64,000 nucleotides of DNA from Nitrospirota bacterium. Its GTDB lineage: Bacteria; Nitrospirota; Thermodesulfovibrionia; Thermodesulfovibrionales; UBA1546. Shown here piece by piece: positions 1,042-63,385 of this stretch. The notes under the pieces are model-generated. The model worked only from the letters and a program-made list of their open reading frames with translations. It was not told where the DNA came from and made no database searches. How positions within the stretch are numbered: position 1 is the stretch's first letter; each line of letters opens with the position of its first letter. The translations under genes and the position numbers were made by a program. The stretch lies in assembly GCA_016195565.1 (NCBI GenBank), contig JACPZK010000022.1, positions 1 through 64,000 on the forward strand. Reading direction: 5' to 3'.

Positions 1042-1791
1042 TCACTCAATATCAAACACTCCTTGTTCAAGGGCTATTGCAACAGCCTGACTTCTCTTTA
1101 CAGCGCCAAACTTTTGCATAATGTTTTTGATATGGAACTTTGCAGTATCTTGACTTATAGAAAGAATTACGGATATTTCCCATGTGCTTTTACCTTCTTT
1201 CAACCATTTCAACACTTCTTTTTCCTTTGGTGAAAGTGGGGTATTGCATGTTTTGTTCTGACGCAAAATACGAGTTAATGCCTGATGAAGGTGAGGAACA
1301 AGATACTTCAGTATAATCTCCGTCCTTGGACAGCGTTTTATTGAAGTCCCTGCAAAAGAGAATAGGCTCCCTGTGTTACCTTTAAAATTTCTTAATCCGT
1401 CAGTATAGCCTCCTCTCAATCCAAAGTCCTCTGCATGTGAAATAAACACTTTTGAAGTCATGCTTTTTTTATATGTATCAGCCCAGTATTGCAATCTAAA
1501 ATTTAAAAAATTCTCTTTTACAATTGGATCAACCTTATCAAATCTCTGCAAAACATAAAACTCAAGCCAATCTGAAGGATAGCTTATATTTATGATATTG
1601 TAAGAATTTACCGTACAATTAGTGGTTATCTCTCCCAATCCACAGAGAGCAAATTCAAATGGGATTAAAGATTTCAGTTTATTTATAAGTTCTCTTAATT
1701 CCTCTTCCTTGGTACATGAGAGATTTGCAAGTATTAAGTCAAGCAGGTAGATGGCATCGTGTTTGGATAATGAATTTCTTAAATTCCTCAC
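1042..1791 (-). CDS. LuxR-family transcriptional regulator with autoinducer-binding-like N-terminus
   Basis: This is a DNA-binding response regulator. The last 65 residues form a LuxR/GerE helix-turn-helix: LSPKEKEVLKWLKEGKSTWE, then a recognition helix in TAKFHIKNIMQKFGA. The N-terminal ~170 residues resemble the LuxR autoinducer-binding fold (IPFEFALCGLGE, then an aromatic-rich stretch with QYWADTY), but no ligand can be assigned. I chose GTG at 1791, which has GGGAGAGG just upstream. The longer frame to 1872 would run through a terminator-like hairpin (1843-1864). No luxI synthase is nearby, so it may be a LuxR solo. Its 3' end abuts the IS3 end, and a GTCT microsatellite lies about 100 bp upstream of the start. 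Confidence 0.8.
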   Translation of the reverse strand: MRNLRNSLSKHDAIYLLDLILANLSCTKEEELRELINKLKSLIPFEFALCGLGEITTNCTVNSYNIINISYPSDWLEFYVLQRFDKVDPIVKENFLNFRLQYWADTYKKSMTSKVFISHAEDFGLRGGYTDGLRNFKGNTGSLFSFAGTSIKRCPRTEIILKYLVPHLHQALTRILRQNKTCNTPLSPKEKEVLKWLKEGKSTWEISVILSISQDTAKFHIKNIMQKFGAVKRSQAVAIALEQGVFDIE

Positions 1792-1831
1792 AAGTCCTCT
1801 CCCTACACACCCATTTACAGGCAAGTTTGAA

Positions 1832-1864
1832 GAAAAATAAAAAAGGCGTGTTATATCACGCCTT
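1832..1864 (-). terminator. Rho-independent terminator-like hairpin upstream of luxR-type gene
   Basis: Arms 1843-1850 and 1857-1864 pair perfectly over 8 bp (AAGGCGTG/CACGCCTT) around a 6-nt loop. On the minus strand a T-rich run follows. It could end the toxin-antitoxin transcript about 220 bp downstream of that operon, or attenuate transcription into the LuxR gene. Confidence 0.65.
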
Positions 1865-1894
1865 GAATTCAACTTTAAACTTATAAGTTAGAAA

Positions 1895-2795: not shown

Positions 2796-4766
2796 CTACG
2801 CGCCATCGGCATACATAACCTTGCCCATATCGCTTACGTCATAACCTCCGAGCTTTGCAACCATTTCCCTGAATTCATTATCTTCCCTGATAATGCTTAA
2901 CAAAGCCCTTATCATTTCTGTATCGTAGAATTCAAACGGGATTGCAAGGTCATAGCGCTCCTTTGCAACAGGGATAAAATCAAGACCGAGCGCTTTCGCT
3001 GATGCAAGTATCGCAAGTCCAGTGTCTGCAATGCCTGTAAGCACCGCTGATGCAACACCCATGTGAGTGTATTCCTCTCTTTCATATCCTTTCACATCTT
3101 CAGGTTTTATTCTGAATTCCCGCAGGTGTTTATCTGTCAATAACCTGGTCCCGGCGCCTGCCTGCCGGTTTATAAAAACAACATCTTCCCTTGTCAGGTC
3201 TTCAAATCCTTTTATATTTTTCGGGTTTCCTTTCAGCACAAGAAGCCCCTGCTCCCTGTAAACTAAATTTACGAGAACGATCCTCCTGTCAGAAAGGAGC
3301 CGTTTTACGGAAGAGACATTATACTCTCCTGTCTCCTCGTCAAGCAGATGTGTTCCTGCAATATGCGCCTCTCCTTTTTTTAAAGCCATCAACCCGCCCA
3401 TTGAACCGGCATGGGCTGACGAAAGCGAGAGTCCGGGATATTTCTTTTTCAGTGCATTTGATAGAAGGTCCAGCGCATTATCATGGCTTCCAATACATAC
3501 TATTGTATTTTCTATTTCGTTTTTTGTTCTGAGCAGTTCTACATTCACCGCTGAACCTGAGCCTATTCCCTCAGACATGGCAGGTATTCTCACAAAACCA
3601 TCTGCACGCACAAGCGACATCAAAACTCCTGCCCCGCGCGAAACAGGAGTGGCAATGAATTTATCTCCGACCTTCCCTATCTTGACCCTTAAAAATTCTT
3701 CCTGTCCGAGAGTTGAAGCAGCCTGCCTTGAAAGGACGACCCTCAAAACCTCAGGGGGTTCCATTTCTATACCCTGCCATTTGTAAATCACAGGCTTTGC
3801 GAAAAGATTAAACGTTATGAATGCTGACACTGGATATCCCGGAATGCCAAGCACAGGCTTGTTTTCAACCAGGCCTAATATTACAGGCTTGCCCGGCTTT
3901 ATGCTTACCCCGTGAAGTATCACTTCACCTGTTTCGCTTATCGCTCTTGATGTAAAATCCTTAGAGCCTGAAGATGCGCCTGCATTGATAACAACCATGT
4001 CTCCAACTTTATGAGCCTCTAAAATTGCATCTTTTAACGCGTCAATATTATCAGGGACGATTCTGAATCTAACAGGCTCTCCTCCCCATTCAGAAACAAG
4101 GCCGCCGAGCACCCTTGAATTGTATTCAATAATATCTCCCTTTTTAAAATTGGTTCCGGGCTCTACGATTTCGGTGCCTGTCGGGATAATTACCACCTTC
4201 GGTTTTCTCCTGACGTTAATATCTACATATCCCCCCGCAAGCATTGCGCCTGTATCAACAGGCCTTATTCTGTGATTTTCAGAAAGTATAAGCTCTGTGG
4301 CAACAATATCCTCGCCAATCACCCTTACATTCTGCCATGGAGTTGCAGGCTCGGTGATTTCTATGTATTCATCAGTATCCTGTGAACCGTGAACCGTGAA
4401 CCGTGAACTAATTACATTTACATCTTCTATCATTATCACTGCATTAAAACCATCAGGCATCGGATCTCCTGTGTCAACATAAACTGTCTGTTCAATTAAC
4501 TTAAGTTTTTTGGGGGATGTTTCGGACGCGCCAAAGGTTTCCTGATATTTAACGGCATATCCGTCCATTGCAGATGAATGATAAAAAGGAGATGAGAGCC
4601 TTGCCGTAACAGGTTCTGCTGTTATTCTTCCGAGGGATTCCGAGACCATTACTTTTTCTCCGGGAAAAGCTTTAAGAAAACCCTGTGATTCAAGCCTCCT
4701 GAGCCATTTTTCTATAGCCTCATTCAGCGGGGTTGTCTCAAGATAAAGCTTACGCTTCAATTGCAC
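2796..4766 (-). CDS. moeA: Molybdopterin molybdenumtransferase MoeA fused to a PBP-like (molybdate-binding-type) domain
   Basis: MoeA inserts molybdate into adenylylated molybdopterin in the cytoplasm. Residues 1 to about 415 are MoeA: SSAMDGYAV, DTGDPMPDGFNAVI, the MoCF-binding segment IIPTGTEIVEPG and VINAGASSGSKDFT, and LGIPGYPVSAF. Residues about 420-656 form the PBP-like domain often appended in anaerobes (INRQAGAGTRLL, GIADTGLAI). At 656 residues it is longer than stand-alone MoeA (~400). The start is GTG at 4766; a TTG two codons later has a better-spaced AGAGG. A heptad repeat (4382-4408) is translated within the MoeA part. The gene would serve molybdoenzymes such as the one at 55299-57422; FeMo-co itself does not use this cofactor. 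Confidence 0.93.
   Translation of the reverse strand: MQLKRKLYLETTPLNEAIEKWLRRLESQGFLKAFPGEKVMVSESLGRITAEPVTARLSSPFYHSSAMDGYAVKYQETFGASETSPKKLKLIEQTVYVDTGDPMPDGFNAVIMIEDVNVISSRFTVHGSQDTDEYIEITEPATPWQNVRVIGEDIVATELILSENHRIRPVDTGAMLAGGYVDINVRRKPKVVIIPTGTEIVEPGTNFKKGDIIEYNSRVLGGLVSEWGGEPVRFRIVPDNIDALKDAILEAHKVGDMVVINAGASSGSKDFTSRAISETGEVILHGVSIKPGKPVILGLVENKPVLGIPGYPVSAFITFNLFAKPVIYKWQGIEMEPPEVLRVVLSRQAASTLGQEEFLRVKIGKVGDKFIATPVSRGAGVLMSLVRADGFVRIPAMSEGIGSGSAVNVELLRTKNEIENTIVCIGSHDNALDLLSNALKKKYPGLSLSSAHAGSMGGLMALKKGEAHIAGTHLLDEETGEYNVSSVKRLLSDRRIVLVNLVYREQGLLVLKGNPKNIKGFEDLTREDVVFINRQAGAGTRLLTDKHLREFRIKPEDVKGYEREEYTHMGVASAVLTGIADTGLAILASAKALGLDFIPVAKERYDLAIPFEFYDTEMIRALLSIIREDNEFREMVAKLGGYDVSDMGKVMYADGA
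4382..4408. repeat. Heptad tandem repeat (GTGAACC) inside moeA
   Basis: Nearly four copies of GTGAACC are read in frame within the MoeA domain and add the peptide SRFTVHGSQ. The same type of 7-bp array occurs in the nifN part of nifEN at 61453-61481. Confidence 0.85.
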
Positions 4767-28880: not shown

Positions 28881-29011
28881 AAAATAGACATAGAACTATA
28901 AACGCTTGAATTACCTGTCATTGCGAGAACCCGAAGGGTTCGTGGCAATCTCATCTCAAAAGGCGAGATTGCTTCGTTGCACTCGCAATGACAACTTTCT
29001 ATGTCTATTTT
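28881..29011. repeat. Nested palindromic element (REP/MITE-like) with TGTCATTGCGAG ends
   Basis: A 15-bp perfect inverted repeat (AAAATAGACATAGAA, 28881-28895 with 28997-29011) encloses an inner one (TGTCATTGCGAG at 28916-28927 with 28982-28993). Inside these are further self-complementary segments. The inner motif recurs within nifEN at 61942-62013. The rest of the 28674-29099 gap holds no gene that I can support. Confidence 0.85.
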
Positions 29012-60320: not shown

Positions 60321-60716
60321 CTATTCACTATTTATTGCCTTTTTTAGCCATGGCGGCGGCAATTTTTTTACAGTTTCAAGAAGCATTCTCAATGACTCCT
60401 CAATGGAAACAACCTCCTTCACCTTTATGGGCATAATCCCTTTTCTGGCAAGGCGCGCCGCAGAAGGCCCGCCTATTTCCGTGAGATACACAATCTTGCA
60501 GTCTGCCAGTTTATCCACTTTACTCCGTACCCTGTCGTCATGCACCTGCCCCAGTCCCTTAGTCTCCTCTATTGCCGAATCCCTTCCGTCCGCAAACTTT
60601 CTCATCTCAAGAAATTTATAACCGTCATTTGTTAATTCATACACCGCAAACATTCCCGCCCTTCCGAAATGTTCATCCACATTTACGCCGTCAGTTGTTG
60701 CGAATGCCACCTTCAT
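60321..60716 (-). CDS. nifX: NifX/NifB-C-like FeMo cofactor carrier protein
   Basis: This 131-residue protein of the dinitrogenase iron-molybdenum cofactor biosynthesis family starts MKVAFATTDGVNVDEHFGRA and has FAVYELTNDGYKFLEMRKF and CKIVYLTEIGGPSAARL. It holds NifB-co or the VK cluster on its way to NifEN. Its start overlaps the nifEN stop by ATGA, so carrier and scaffold are coupled. The C-terminal ~25 residues (LPPPWLKKAINSE) extend beyond the core fold. Confidence 0.92.
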   Translation of the reverse strand: MKVAFATTDGVNVDEHFGRAGMFAVYELTNDGYKFLEMRKFADGRDSAIEETKGLGQVHDDRVRSKVDKLADCKIVYLTEIGGPSAARLARKGIMPIKVKEVVSIEESLRMLLETVKKLPPPWLKKAINSE

Positions 60717-63385
60717 TGATGCACCTCCTTAGCTAATAAATTAGCTGCTTCGTTAATCATAGTTAGCGTTCCCCAGTATCCGATAGTAATCCTGTGGTTG
60801 TTTCCCAAAACCTTGTACACAGGGAACCCCATCTGATACAAAGGCGCTCCGAGCCTCTTTGCCGTATCTTCAGCATGGGAATTCGATACGAGAAGATCGA
60901 AGTCTCCTTCTATTGAGAAAAGGGCGCTTTTATTTACATCGACTTCAAAAACCTCAGCGCCCATCTCTTCAAGCCATCTTGATGTCTGTACTGAAAGGTC
61001 AGGCTCAAGTGCAGTGCATATTTTTTTACTGCCATAATAAAAATGAGCATCCCTCATACCATCAATCAAAATCCTTCTCTGCCGCTCGTATTTTTGGGGA
61101 ATCGGCTTGCCGCTCAACATCGAAAGCGTTTCCATAAGCATATCCGTATCCCTTAATCCTGCTATGCTTTCAAGCGCCTTGTATTCTATGTTGAACCTGT
61201 CTTTCAGCTGCTTAGCGGAAGTCTCCATGCTTGCGCCTATGGCAATAGTGAACTCTGATTTCGACATCTCCTTAATTTCATCAATCTTCGTGCCTCCAAG
61301 AGACAAGGCCGACAGGCCCTGCCTGCTTCCGTCGAGCGCTGACAGGTCAGGCAAAATTATAGACCTTAAGCCGAACGACTCGATAATCTCCCTCAGTTCT
61401 GTGAAATCGGCAGGGGTGAGATGCGAGCCGACAATGACATTGATCTGCCTTTCTGTGAACTGTGAACTGTGAACTGTGAACGAATTTTCAGCAATATGCA
61501 AAAGCGCTTCCACTGCTTTTGCATACCCTATTTCCAATCCTCCTTCATAATCAGGCGTTGCAACATTGATAATTTGGCACCTTGAATCTTGAATTTTGAA
61601 TTTTAAATTTTTAATTGCACTTGCCGCATCATCACCCTTTACTTCTGAGAGTCCTGATGTGAGAATGCCGATTAGCTCAGGATTGTTCTTTTCTATAAAT
61701 CCCTTGACCGCTTCCGTTATATTTTCTTCGCTTCCCATAACCACATTCTCTGTAAAGAGCTTTGTGGATGCGAGCGCTATTGGCTCCCTGAAATGCTTTG
61801 TCAGAAGAACCTTTCCGAGAAATGTGCATCCCTGCGCGCCGTGAATAATAGGCAGAGCTTTATGTATCCCCTGAAATGCGATTGCTGCGCCGATGGACTG
61901 TGAGTGTTTGAGGGGATTGATGAGTACATCATTCCCTTGTCTGTCATTGCGAGCAAAGCGAAGCAATCCCTTATCTTTTGAGATTGCTTCAGCACTTCGT
62001 GCCTCGCAAAGACTCTGAGTATGACTGTTGACTGATTGCTGATTGCTATAAAACCTTATGCCGTTGCTTATCTGCTCCGCCAGATTTACCAGCCCGTCAT
62101 ATCCTGCGTACGCGGTATGCCTTTCCTGATTCACGTCAACAAACGGATATCCTTCCTTTATTGCAAGGTACTGGTTCCTTCCTCCCGCAACAAGTATATC
62201 TGCATTATTTTCTTTCAGAAGTCTGAGCAGATTTTTGGGTGTTACATCTTCAATAAGAGGCGCATCCTGCCCCAATATCTCCTTCATCTTCTCCTCATCC
62301 TCAAAGGTACTCTTCTTTGTTCCTACTGCCACTATCTCAATCCCTAAATCAAGGAGTGCAGAGATAAAAGACCAGCTCTTCACGCCTCCGGTATAAAGCA
62401 CAGCCTTTTTGCCTCTTAAATGTTCGTAAGTCTTCAATCTTTCTTGAAGCCGCTTTTCTTCCTTTGCAATGATTGCTTCAATCTTTGAACTTTCAACTTT
62501 CAACTTTGAACTTATAACTTTTAATGCCTTCGACATCTCTGTCTTTCCAAAGAAAGAAACTTCAACATAAGGAATCCCATATTTTCTTTCCATCTCCCTT
62601 GCTATGTTTATCAATGCCCTGCTGCATACGACTACATTCAGCTTTGCCTTGTGAGCGTATGTTATCTCCTCAAAAGCAGCATCGCCTGTTATCCTCGAAA
62701 GAATCCGTATTCCTGCATCTTTTAGCACGGGCTCGACGAGCCATAAATCGCCTGCAATGTTGTATTCGCCTATAAGATTTATTAACCTCTCCTCACTATA
62801 GGGGGCTCTCCCAGATTTACGGGCGCAGTGAAGCGAAGCCGTAGAATCGGGACTGTCCCCTTCAGGCAGATCGCCGGTTCCTATCACATAGTCGAGCAAT
62901 ACCTCTCCTGCTATTCTGTTCCCTAAGTTTTTTGGCCCCACGAACCCCGGGGCATTAACAGGAATGACACGAATACCAAGTTCTGCTTCCGCTTTTTTGC
63001 AGACAGTCTCTATATCCTCTCCAATAAGTCCGCTTACACATGTGGCATAAACAAATATTGCCTTTGGCTTTACCGACTCATATGTTTGCAAGATCGCATT
63101 GTAAAGTTTCTCCTCAGAGCCATAGATAATGTCCATCTCGGTCATATCTGTTGTAAAACCAATCTTGTGAAGGCTGCCCTTTGACGACAGCGTGCCCCTT
63201 CCTTCCCATGAATTACCGCAGCACGCAATGGGGCCGTGGACAAGGTGTGCTGCATTGGCGATAGGCTGGAGGACTATCATAGCGCCGTCAAATGCGCATG
63301 ATTCCCCGCCTCTGGAACGGCAAACTTTATGCTTGCTCTCCGTATCGCAACCGCTTTGCAGCAATTTATCAATGCTGGTTAACAT
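60713..63385 (-). CDS. nifEN: Fused nitrogenase cofactor scaffold NifE-NifN
   Basis: One 890-codon frame holds both subunits of the scaffold on which FeMo-co matures. Residues ~1-445 are NifE (HGPIACCGNSWEGRGTLSSK, FVYATCVSGLIGEDI, VNAPGFVGPKNLGN). Residues ~485-890 are NifN (IGAAIAFQGIHKALPIIHGA, QGCTFLGKVLLTKHFREP, GILTSGLSEVKGDD). Residues ~446-481 between them are translated repeat DNA: a heptad array followed by a palindromic element (SLCEARSAEAISKDKGLLRF). Three further heptad arrays are translated inside the domains. Fused nifEN genes are known, but this junction is unusual. It follows nifK after 125 bp. Confidence 0.95.
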   Translation of the reverse strand: MLTSIDKLLQSGCDTESKHKVCRSRGGESCAFDGAMIVLQPIANAAHLVHGPIACCGNSWEGRGTLSSKGSLHKIGFTTDMTEMDIIYGSEEKLYNAILQTYESVKPKAIFVYATCVSGLIGEDIETVCKKAEAELGIRVIPVNAPGFVGPKNLGNRIAGEVLLDYVIGTGDLPEGDSPDSTASLHCARKSGRAPYSEERLINLIGEYNIAGDLWLVEPVLKDAGIRILSRITGDAAFEEITYAHKAKLNVVVCSRALINIAREMERKYGIPYVEVSFFGKTEMSKALKVISSKLKVESSKIEAIIAKEEKRLQERLKTYEHLRGKKAVLYTGGVKSWSFISALLDLGIEIVAVGTKKSTFEDEEKMKEILGQDAPLIEDVTPKNLLRLLKENNADILVAGGRNQYLAIKEGYPFVDVNQERHTAYAGYDGLVNLAEQISNGIRFYSNQQSVNSHTQSLCEARSAEAISKDKGLLRFARNDRQGNDVLINPLKHSQSIGAAIAFQGIHKALPIIHGAQGCTFLGKVLLTKHFREPIALASTKLFTENVVMGSEENITEAVKGFIEKNNPELIGILTSGLSEVKGDDAASAIKNLKFKIQDSRCQIINVATPDYEGGLEIGYAKAVEALLHIAENSFTVHSSQFTERQINVIVGSHLTPADFTELREIIESFGLRSIILPDLSALDGSRQGLSALSLGGTKIDEIKEMSKSEFTIAIGASMETSAKQLKDRFNIEYKALESIAGLRDTDMLMETLSMLSGKPIPQKYERQRRILIDGMRDAHFYYGSKKICTALEPDLSVQTSRWLEEMGAEVFEVDVNKSALFSIEGDFDLLVSNSHAEDTAKRLGAPLYQMGFPVYKVLGNNHRITIGYWGTLTMINEAANLLAKEVHQ
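61453..61481. repeat. Heptad tandem repeat (CTGTGAA) translated in the NifN part
   Basis: About four copies of CTGTGAA are read in frame as SFTVHSSQFTE, around residues 634-644 of the fusion. It has the same register and type as the array in moeA. Confidence 0.85.
61581..61615. repeat. A/T heptad repeat translated in the NifN part
   Basis: TTGAATCTTGAATTTTGAAT and following degenerate units encode NLKFKIQDSR, around residues 590-601. Confidence 0.7.
61942..62013. repeat. Palindromic TGTCATTGCGAG element forming the NifE-NifN linker
   Basis: The element starts TGTCATTGCGAG and ends with the near-complement CTCGCAAAGAC. Inside are complementary segments GCGAAGCAATC and GATTGCTTC. It is the same family as the intergenic copy at 28881-29011 and is read through in frame. 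Confidence 0.8.
62022..62048. repeat. Heptad repeat (TGATTGC/TGACTGT) at the NifE-NifN junction
   Basis: Tandem units TGACTGT, TGACTGA and TGATTGC adjoin the palindromic element and encode NQQSVNSH. Confidence 0.65.
62482..62520. repeat. Heptad repeat (CTTTGAA/CTTTCAA) translated in the NifE part
   Basis: Five or so units alternate CTTTGAA and CTTTCAA and encode SSKLKVESSK, around residues 288-301. Confidence 0.8.

Follow-up and report, generated by a model that had tools for sequence, protein, structure and literature searches.

Repeat DNA is read in frame at five variable sites of a fused NifEN protein in Thermodesulfovibrionales

In Rickettsia, several families of palindromic elements (RPE) lie in frame within unrelated genes and are apparently translated (PMC10969869). 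REPs tagged with GTAG or CGTC, which are short palindromes that often form inverted dimers, have also been found inside ORFs, where neutral insertion in loops has been suggested, and different REPs occur near the same recB site in two Xanthomonas species (PMC3733652). Organisms of the Nitrospira type are not mentioned in its text. Tandem arrays with a 7-bp unit are over-represented in bacteria, and the G-rich ones are mostly intergenic (PMC4692102). Natural fusions of NifE and NifN are already represented in NCBIfam (NF011047) and by a solved structure in the PDB (9i0g). In our literature searches, repeat insertions in NifEN were not described in any paper, nor was a single enzyme in which several classes of repeat gather at five fixed positions across an order.

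Here we describe repeat DNA in the nifEN gene of a Nitrospirota bacterium (G000; other G and L numbers denote other genomes and DNA stretches) and of its relatives. The window is the whole stretch of 64,000 nucleotides from G000 that was analysed. The gene occupies positions 60713–63385 on the minus strand and encodes the FeMo-cofactor scaffold NifE-NifN as a single ORF of 890 aa. As both the NifE equivalog (TIGR01283, 595.7 bits, cut-off 505.1) and the NifN equivalog (TIGR01285, 433.4 bits, cut-off 326.8) were matched above their cut-offs, the two proteins do share one open frame, as the first-pass annotation of this DNA had stated. The match to the natural fusion model NF011047 reached 956.4 bits, under a cut-off of 1229 that is a criterion of the NCBI model rather than a biochemical one, and we regard the protein as a fusion by content that lies outside this model. 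Around the NifN boundary we found neither an ATG nor a GTG that could serve as an internal start; the only candidate is a TTG within the palindrome described below. Five cysteines (C30, C55, C116, C254 and C520 in G000 numbering) are invariant in the NifEN alignment. They were matched by eye, from PDB alignments, to the cluster ligands, which we take to be Cys37, 62, 124 and 250 of NifE and Cys44 of NifN. The protein is presumably made and working. Its AlphaFold2 model has a moderate mean pLDDT of 72, and the closest fold in the PDB is that of the fused holo-GmNifEN (9i0g).

The linker that leads from the NifE half to the NifN half (61928–62050, minus strand, residues about 446–486) is composed of repeat DNA. 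It contains an inverted repeat of the TGTCATTGCGAG family that resembles a REP dimer (61942–62014) and is translated as CEARSAEAIS...LLRFARND, with a perfect TGTCATTGCGAG arm at 61942–61953 and an arm with two mismatches at 62003–62014. A CTGATTG heptad array (62032–62047, minus strand) contributes to the translated SNQQSVNS. The linker is open in one frame only, with stops in both other frames. Its earlier description as a heptad repeat combined with a TGTCATTGCGAG palindrome was therefore accurate, and so was the report of the same element at 28881–29011, since a second copy of the family, with both arms perfect, lies within that interval at 28916–28993, outside the nif genes. Within the 64-kb window, the 12-mer with up to two mismatches was not found above chance (four seen, 4.56 expected). 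The whole genome contains 215 exact half-sites versus 0 for the reversed control, and 274 versus 11 when one mismatch is allowed. The tag of the half-sites is TGTC in 215 of 228 (94%), and so not CGTC. The same-genus genome G001 has 13 exact copies compared with the 215 in G000, and counts of GTCATTGCGAG are very high in G044 (303) and G013 (191).

NifEN homologues were gathered from the order, the class, the phylum and the genome collection. Among 149 genomes of the order, 48 contained NifEN as one end-to-end alignment, and in 47 of these the frame is free of internal stops. Nearly all relatives have the fusion, their linkers being unrelated, and members of other classes are also fused. The sister species (G001/L065, same genus, 82% identical) has a fused NifEN with a different linker that lacks the palindrome. 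In a tree covering other classes as well as the split genes from families f20, f24, f26, f28 and f31, the 44 fused sequences of this type formed one clade with a support of 100, apart from split nifE and nifN; the trees were quick searches. The deeper members of this clade have linkers without the TGTCATTGCGAG palindrome. Because the fusion is shared by relatives with unrelated linkers and forms a single clade, it is older than the element, and the TGTCATTGCGAG palindrome landed in an existing linker. The first-pass annotation had proposed the reverse, namely that the element replaced the stop and start signals at the nifE/nifN boundary and so made the fusion. The palindrome does fall precisely at the junction of the halves, with an open frame across it, but the tree and the fused relatives, including the sister species, refute such an origin. 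An older fusion with unrelated linkers in relatives is what the annotation itself had named as refuting evidence, and the idea of repeat DNA as the maker of a nitrogen-fixation gene fusion was not upheld by the comparison with relatives. Two further placements in the tree were observed. The divergent fused NifEN of L155, which has the best NF011047 match among the homologues, was placed with split genes in the rooted drawing, and the NifEN of the Actinomycetota MAGs L042 and L054 (one an Aquicultor) are nested within the Nitrospirota fused clade, probably through horizontal transfer or misbinning.

Beyond what had been annotated before, the same gene contains three more heptad arrays and a palindromic insert. 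In an alignment of 56 NifEN proteins, five sites are variable in Thermodesulfovibrionales, the linker and four loops, and at every one of them different genomes hold different repeat sequences, all in frame. In G000, site S1 (residues ~174–197) contains an imperfect inverted repeat, GGGGACAGTCCCGATTCTACGG...CCGTAAATCTGGGAGAGCCCCC (62795–62866, minus strand). The three other sites contain heptad arrays, all on the minus strand: TTCAACT x6.3 at S2 (62477–62521, residues 289–303, translated VISSKLKVESSK), TTGAATT x5 at S4 (61582–61616, residues 590–602, translated KNLKFKIQDSR) and CTGTGAA x4.1 at S5 (61453–61481, residues 634–645, translated NSFTVHSSQFTE). In the AlphaFold2 model, all five sites fall between secondary-structure elements, and the pLDDT is <50 at residues 177–197 in S1, 448–492 around the linker and 636–641 in S5. 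At least four palindrome families occur in NifEN, at S1, S2, the linker and S5. The TGTCATTGCGAG palindrome is found in the linker of G000, L038, L075 and L077 and at S2 in L042, a palindrome CCCCCTTT..AAAGGGGG at S1 and S2, GGGGACAGTCCC at S1 and GTCATTCCCGCTTGTC at S5. L051 has a long heptad array of the FKIQNSR type.

The heptad arrays are concentrated at these positions. In the 56 NifEN genes they were found at S4 in 28, at S2 in 21 and at the linker and S5 in 18 each, whereas any other position had an array in at most one gene. Tandem Repeats Finder detected 73 merged period-7 arrays in the 56 NifEN genes (4.92 per 10 kb), compared with none in 33 NifD genes, three in 60 NifK genes (0.33 per 10 kb) and ten in 149 other long ORFs (0.70 per 10 kb). 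As NifD and NifK are paralogues with the NifEN fold, located in the same gene clusters, their paucity of arrays shows that there is no general neighbourhood effect. Strict perfect inverted repeats agree in direction, with 15 at the five sites (19.1 kb) versus 12 elsewhere (129 kb), although this count is low in power because the palindromes are imperfect; the corresponding count for NifD is most likely inflated by masked N runs.

Most of these sequences have copies elsewhere in the genome. Statistics on the G000 genome were drawn from sampled stretches that total 464 kb, one fifth of the genome, in which the inserts at the linker, S2, S4 and S5 all had further copies, the S2 and S4 arrays matching arrays at other places. 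No further copy of the S1 insert was found in the sample, nor any other copy of six conserved control segments at E <1e-3. The sample contains 30 copies of the TGTCATTGCGAG-family palindrome. As nearly all of them lie between genes although ORFs make up ~90% of the sequence, the NifEN copy is among the few intragenic ones. Three of the 30 are in frame within genes, namely in NifEN, PurL and a methyltransferase, and the domain matches that flank the palindrome in the latter two are intact. PurL (1369 aa, L130:14618–18727; contig C2, ~94618–98727) contains the palindrome and three heptad arrays in frame and is thus, next to NifEN, another enzyme rich in such inserts, and the small methyltransferase (L116:10892–11776; contig C6, ~90892–91776) has one in-frame palindrome just ahead of its NPPF motif. 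Seven matches to Y1 transposases were found in G000, and a half-site lies within ~1 kb of a Y1 gene in two of five stretches. Across 61 genomes, the number of Y1 transposases did not correlate with the number of elements (rho 0.155, p 0.23).

Among tandem repeats in the sample, a period of 7 was the commonest (39 rows, plus 29 at period 14 and six at 21), and the heptad units at one NifEN site differ between genomes. Both observations are consistent with heptad arrays that could arise in place by slippage in unconstrained loops, with only the palindromes being mobile. This possibility, a variant of the explanation that we prefer and compatible with it, is plausible but somewhat less than evenly probable, as 11 units are shared by at least two NifEN sites and both the S2 and the S4 array have counterparts elsewhere in the genome. 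Two other arrays in the window were noted. A heptad array at 4382–4408 is translated within a MoeA-like molybdopterin protein (2796–4766, minus strand), and a perfect (GTCT)8.5 array (1895–1928) lies immediately ahead of the TTG predicted to start a LuxR-like regulator (1042–1872, minus strand), where it is a possible phase-variation tract.

The repeats in NifEN are compatible with translation in the frame in which they are found. Stop triplets occur in 10 of 97 heptad units on the coding strand and in 59 of 97 on the opposite strand. The lengths of the 30 palindrome copies are spread evenly modulo 3 (10/10/10). As element length thus shows no bias towards multiples of three, the frame is kept by filtering rather than by the design of the element. 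On a simple reading, insertion is blind and selection retains the harmless outcomes. Palindrome copies have 2.3 of six frames open versus 1.7 in intergenic DNA, a comparison in which lengths were unmatched. The broken NifEN frames in relatives lie mostly at repeat-bearing sites. The frame breaks at the linker in G055 (L029) and G049 (L031), a stop lies at S4 in G047 (L012), and the frame changes at S5 in G246 (L161); each of these reflects either secondary gene fission or an assembly error. G049 has an additional break at 774–812, and the NifEN of G326 is rearranged over 408–519. Repeats misassemble easily, some breaks fall exactly at these sites, and some may be assembly errors. An assembly artefact was also considered as the source of the linker insert and rejected, as the same insert occurs in independent assemblies. 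As a general account of the repeats it is extremely unlikely, since dozens of independent assemblies preserve the open frame and the palindrome occupies the same linker site in four, with flanking bases common to the three that were compared.

These three linker palindromes, from G000, L038 and L075, have a common left flank and right arm. As the palindrome is absent from the nearest relatives of G000, it must have been repeatedly lost or transferred by recombination. In some species pairs with 70–80% DNA identity, NifEN contains tracts of 120–450 bases at ~93–97% identity, several of which span an insert; the tracts with inserts are almost the same in species that have diverged by about 25–30%. 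One such tract, between L068 and L059, covers S2, and another, between L065 and L038, covers S5 and has an insert that differs at one of 93 bases. The NifEN genes of L034, L068, L038, L065 and L059 are mosaics in which distant species share short tracts that are nearly identical, which we read as a sign of intragenic recombination. The inserts turn over fast, partly via short-tract recombination. Parsimony gave 11–14 changes per site for the heptad arrays, a figure that is rough because of recombination, which blurs the number of independent insertions.

The fusion, then, is old, and very probably interspersed repeats have repeatedly entered five tolerant sites of NifEN and were kept if in frame. 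A single fusion of NifE and NifN before the radiation of the clade would have had a short, unstructured linker of ~20 residues, and this linker and four loops of the protein would accept extra residues. Repeats would enter the five sites many times, as REP-like palindromes and as 7-bp arrays, the latter either by arrival or through growth by slippage. Any copy that breaks the frame or disturbs the protein would be purged, while in-frame copies free of stops would persist, later to be turned over by slippage, replacement and short-tract recombination between species. In G000, the TGTCATTGCGAG family has multiplied, and the linker contains one of its copies. The NifEN inserts are most likely, like RPE and intragenic REPs, a case of neutral, tolerated insertion, but one that is unusually dense.

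Selection on the repeats themselves is an alternative, in which an mRNA hairpin or a longer linker tunes translation, folding or the geometry of NifE:NifN. Many lineages do have repeats at the same sites, as the parsimony counts illustrate, the RNA of the G000 linker folds strongly, at -47 kcal/mol (a raw value without a shuffle control), and the linker of the Geobacter-type fused NifEN L155 contains a low-complexity, repeat-like LTPTLTLPRQGGGR. However, the family, length and sequence of the elements are not conserved, many relatives have short, plain linkers, and the same repeats are found in loops without an obvious role and also in PurL and the methyltransferase. We therefore consider such selection quite unlikely. 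Only slightly less doubtful is a broader form, in which the five sites make up a fast-evolving region composed of repeat DNA, with a role under selection and with renewal by insertion and interspecies recombination; mRNA hairpins might then set the translation of NifE and NifN, and loop length might tune partner docking.

If tolerated insertion is indeed the explanation, repeat DNA extends the protein sequence of a central maturase of nitrogen fixation throughout an order of bacteria, and the five sites provide a natural data set on how genes survive insertions. They also map the NifEN loops that accept foreign sequence, which may be useful for the engineering of nitrogenase assembly with tags, linkers and fusions. 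Such repeat stretches should not be taken as functional domains or included in phylogenies.

Among known systems, the RPE are similar in that the TGTCATTGCGAG family is multi-copy, interspersed and in frame in NifEN, PurL and the methyltransferase, where it is presumably translated. Unlike RPE, several palindrome families and heptad arrays meet at five fixed sites of one protein throughout an order, and whereas RPE hosts are obligate intracellular, the NifEN repeats are found in environmental bacteria. The TGTCATTGCGAG element resembles an inverted dimer, as do intragenic REPs, but its half-sites carry TGTC instead of CGTC, and the density and re-use of sites in NifEN are far higher. Compared with the heptameric repeats described in bacteria, about half of the arrays sampled here (18 of 38) lie in ORFs, with NifEN as a hotspot. 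Like the natural fusions of NF011047 and GmNifEN, the G000 protein is one polypeptide with NifE followed by NifN; unlike them, it belongs to a separate fused clade.
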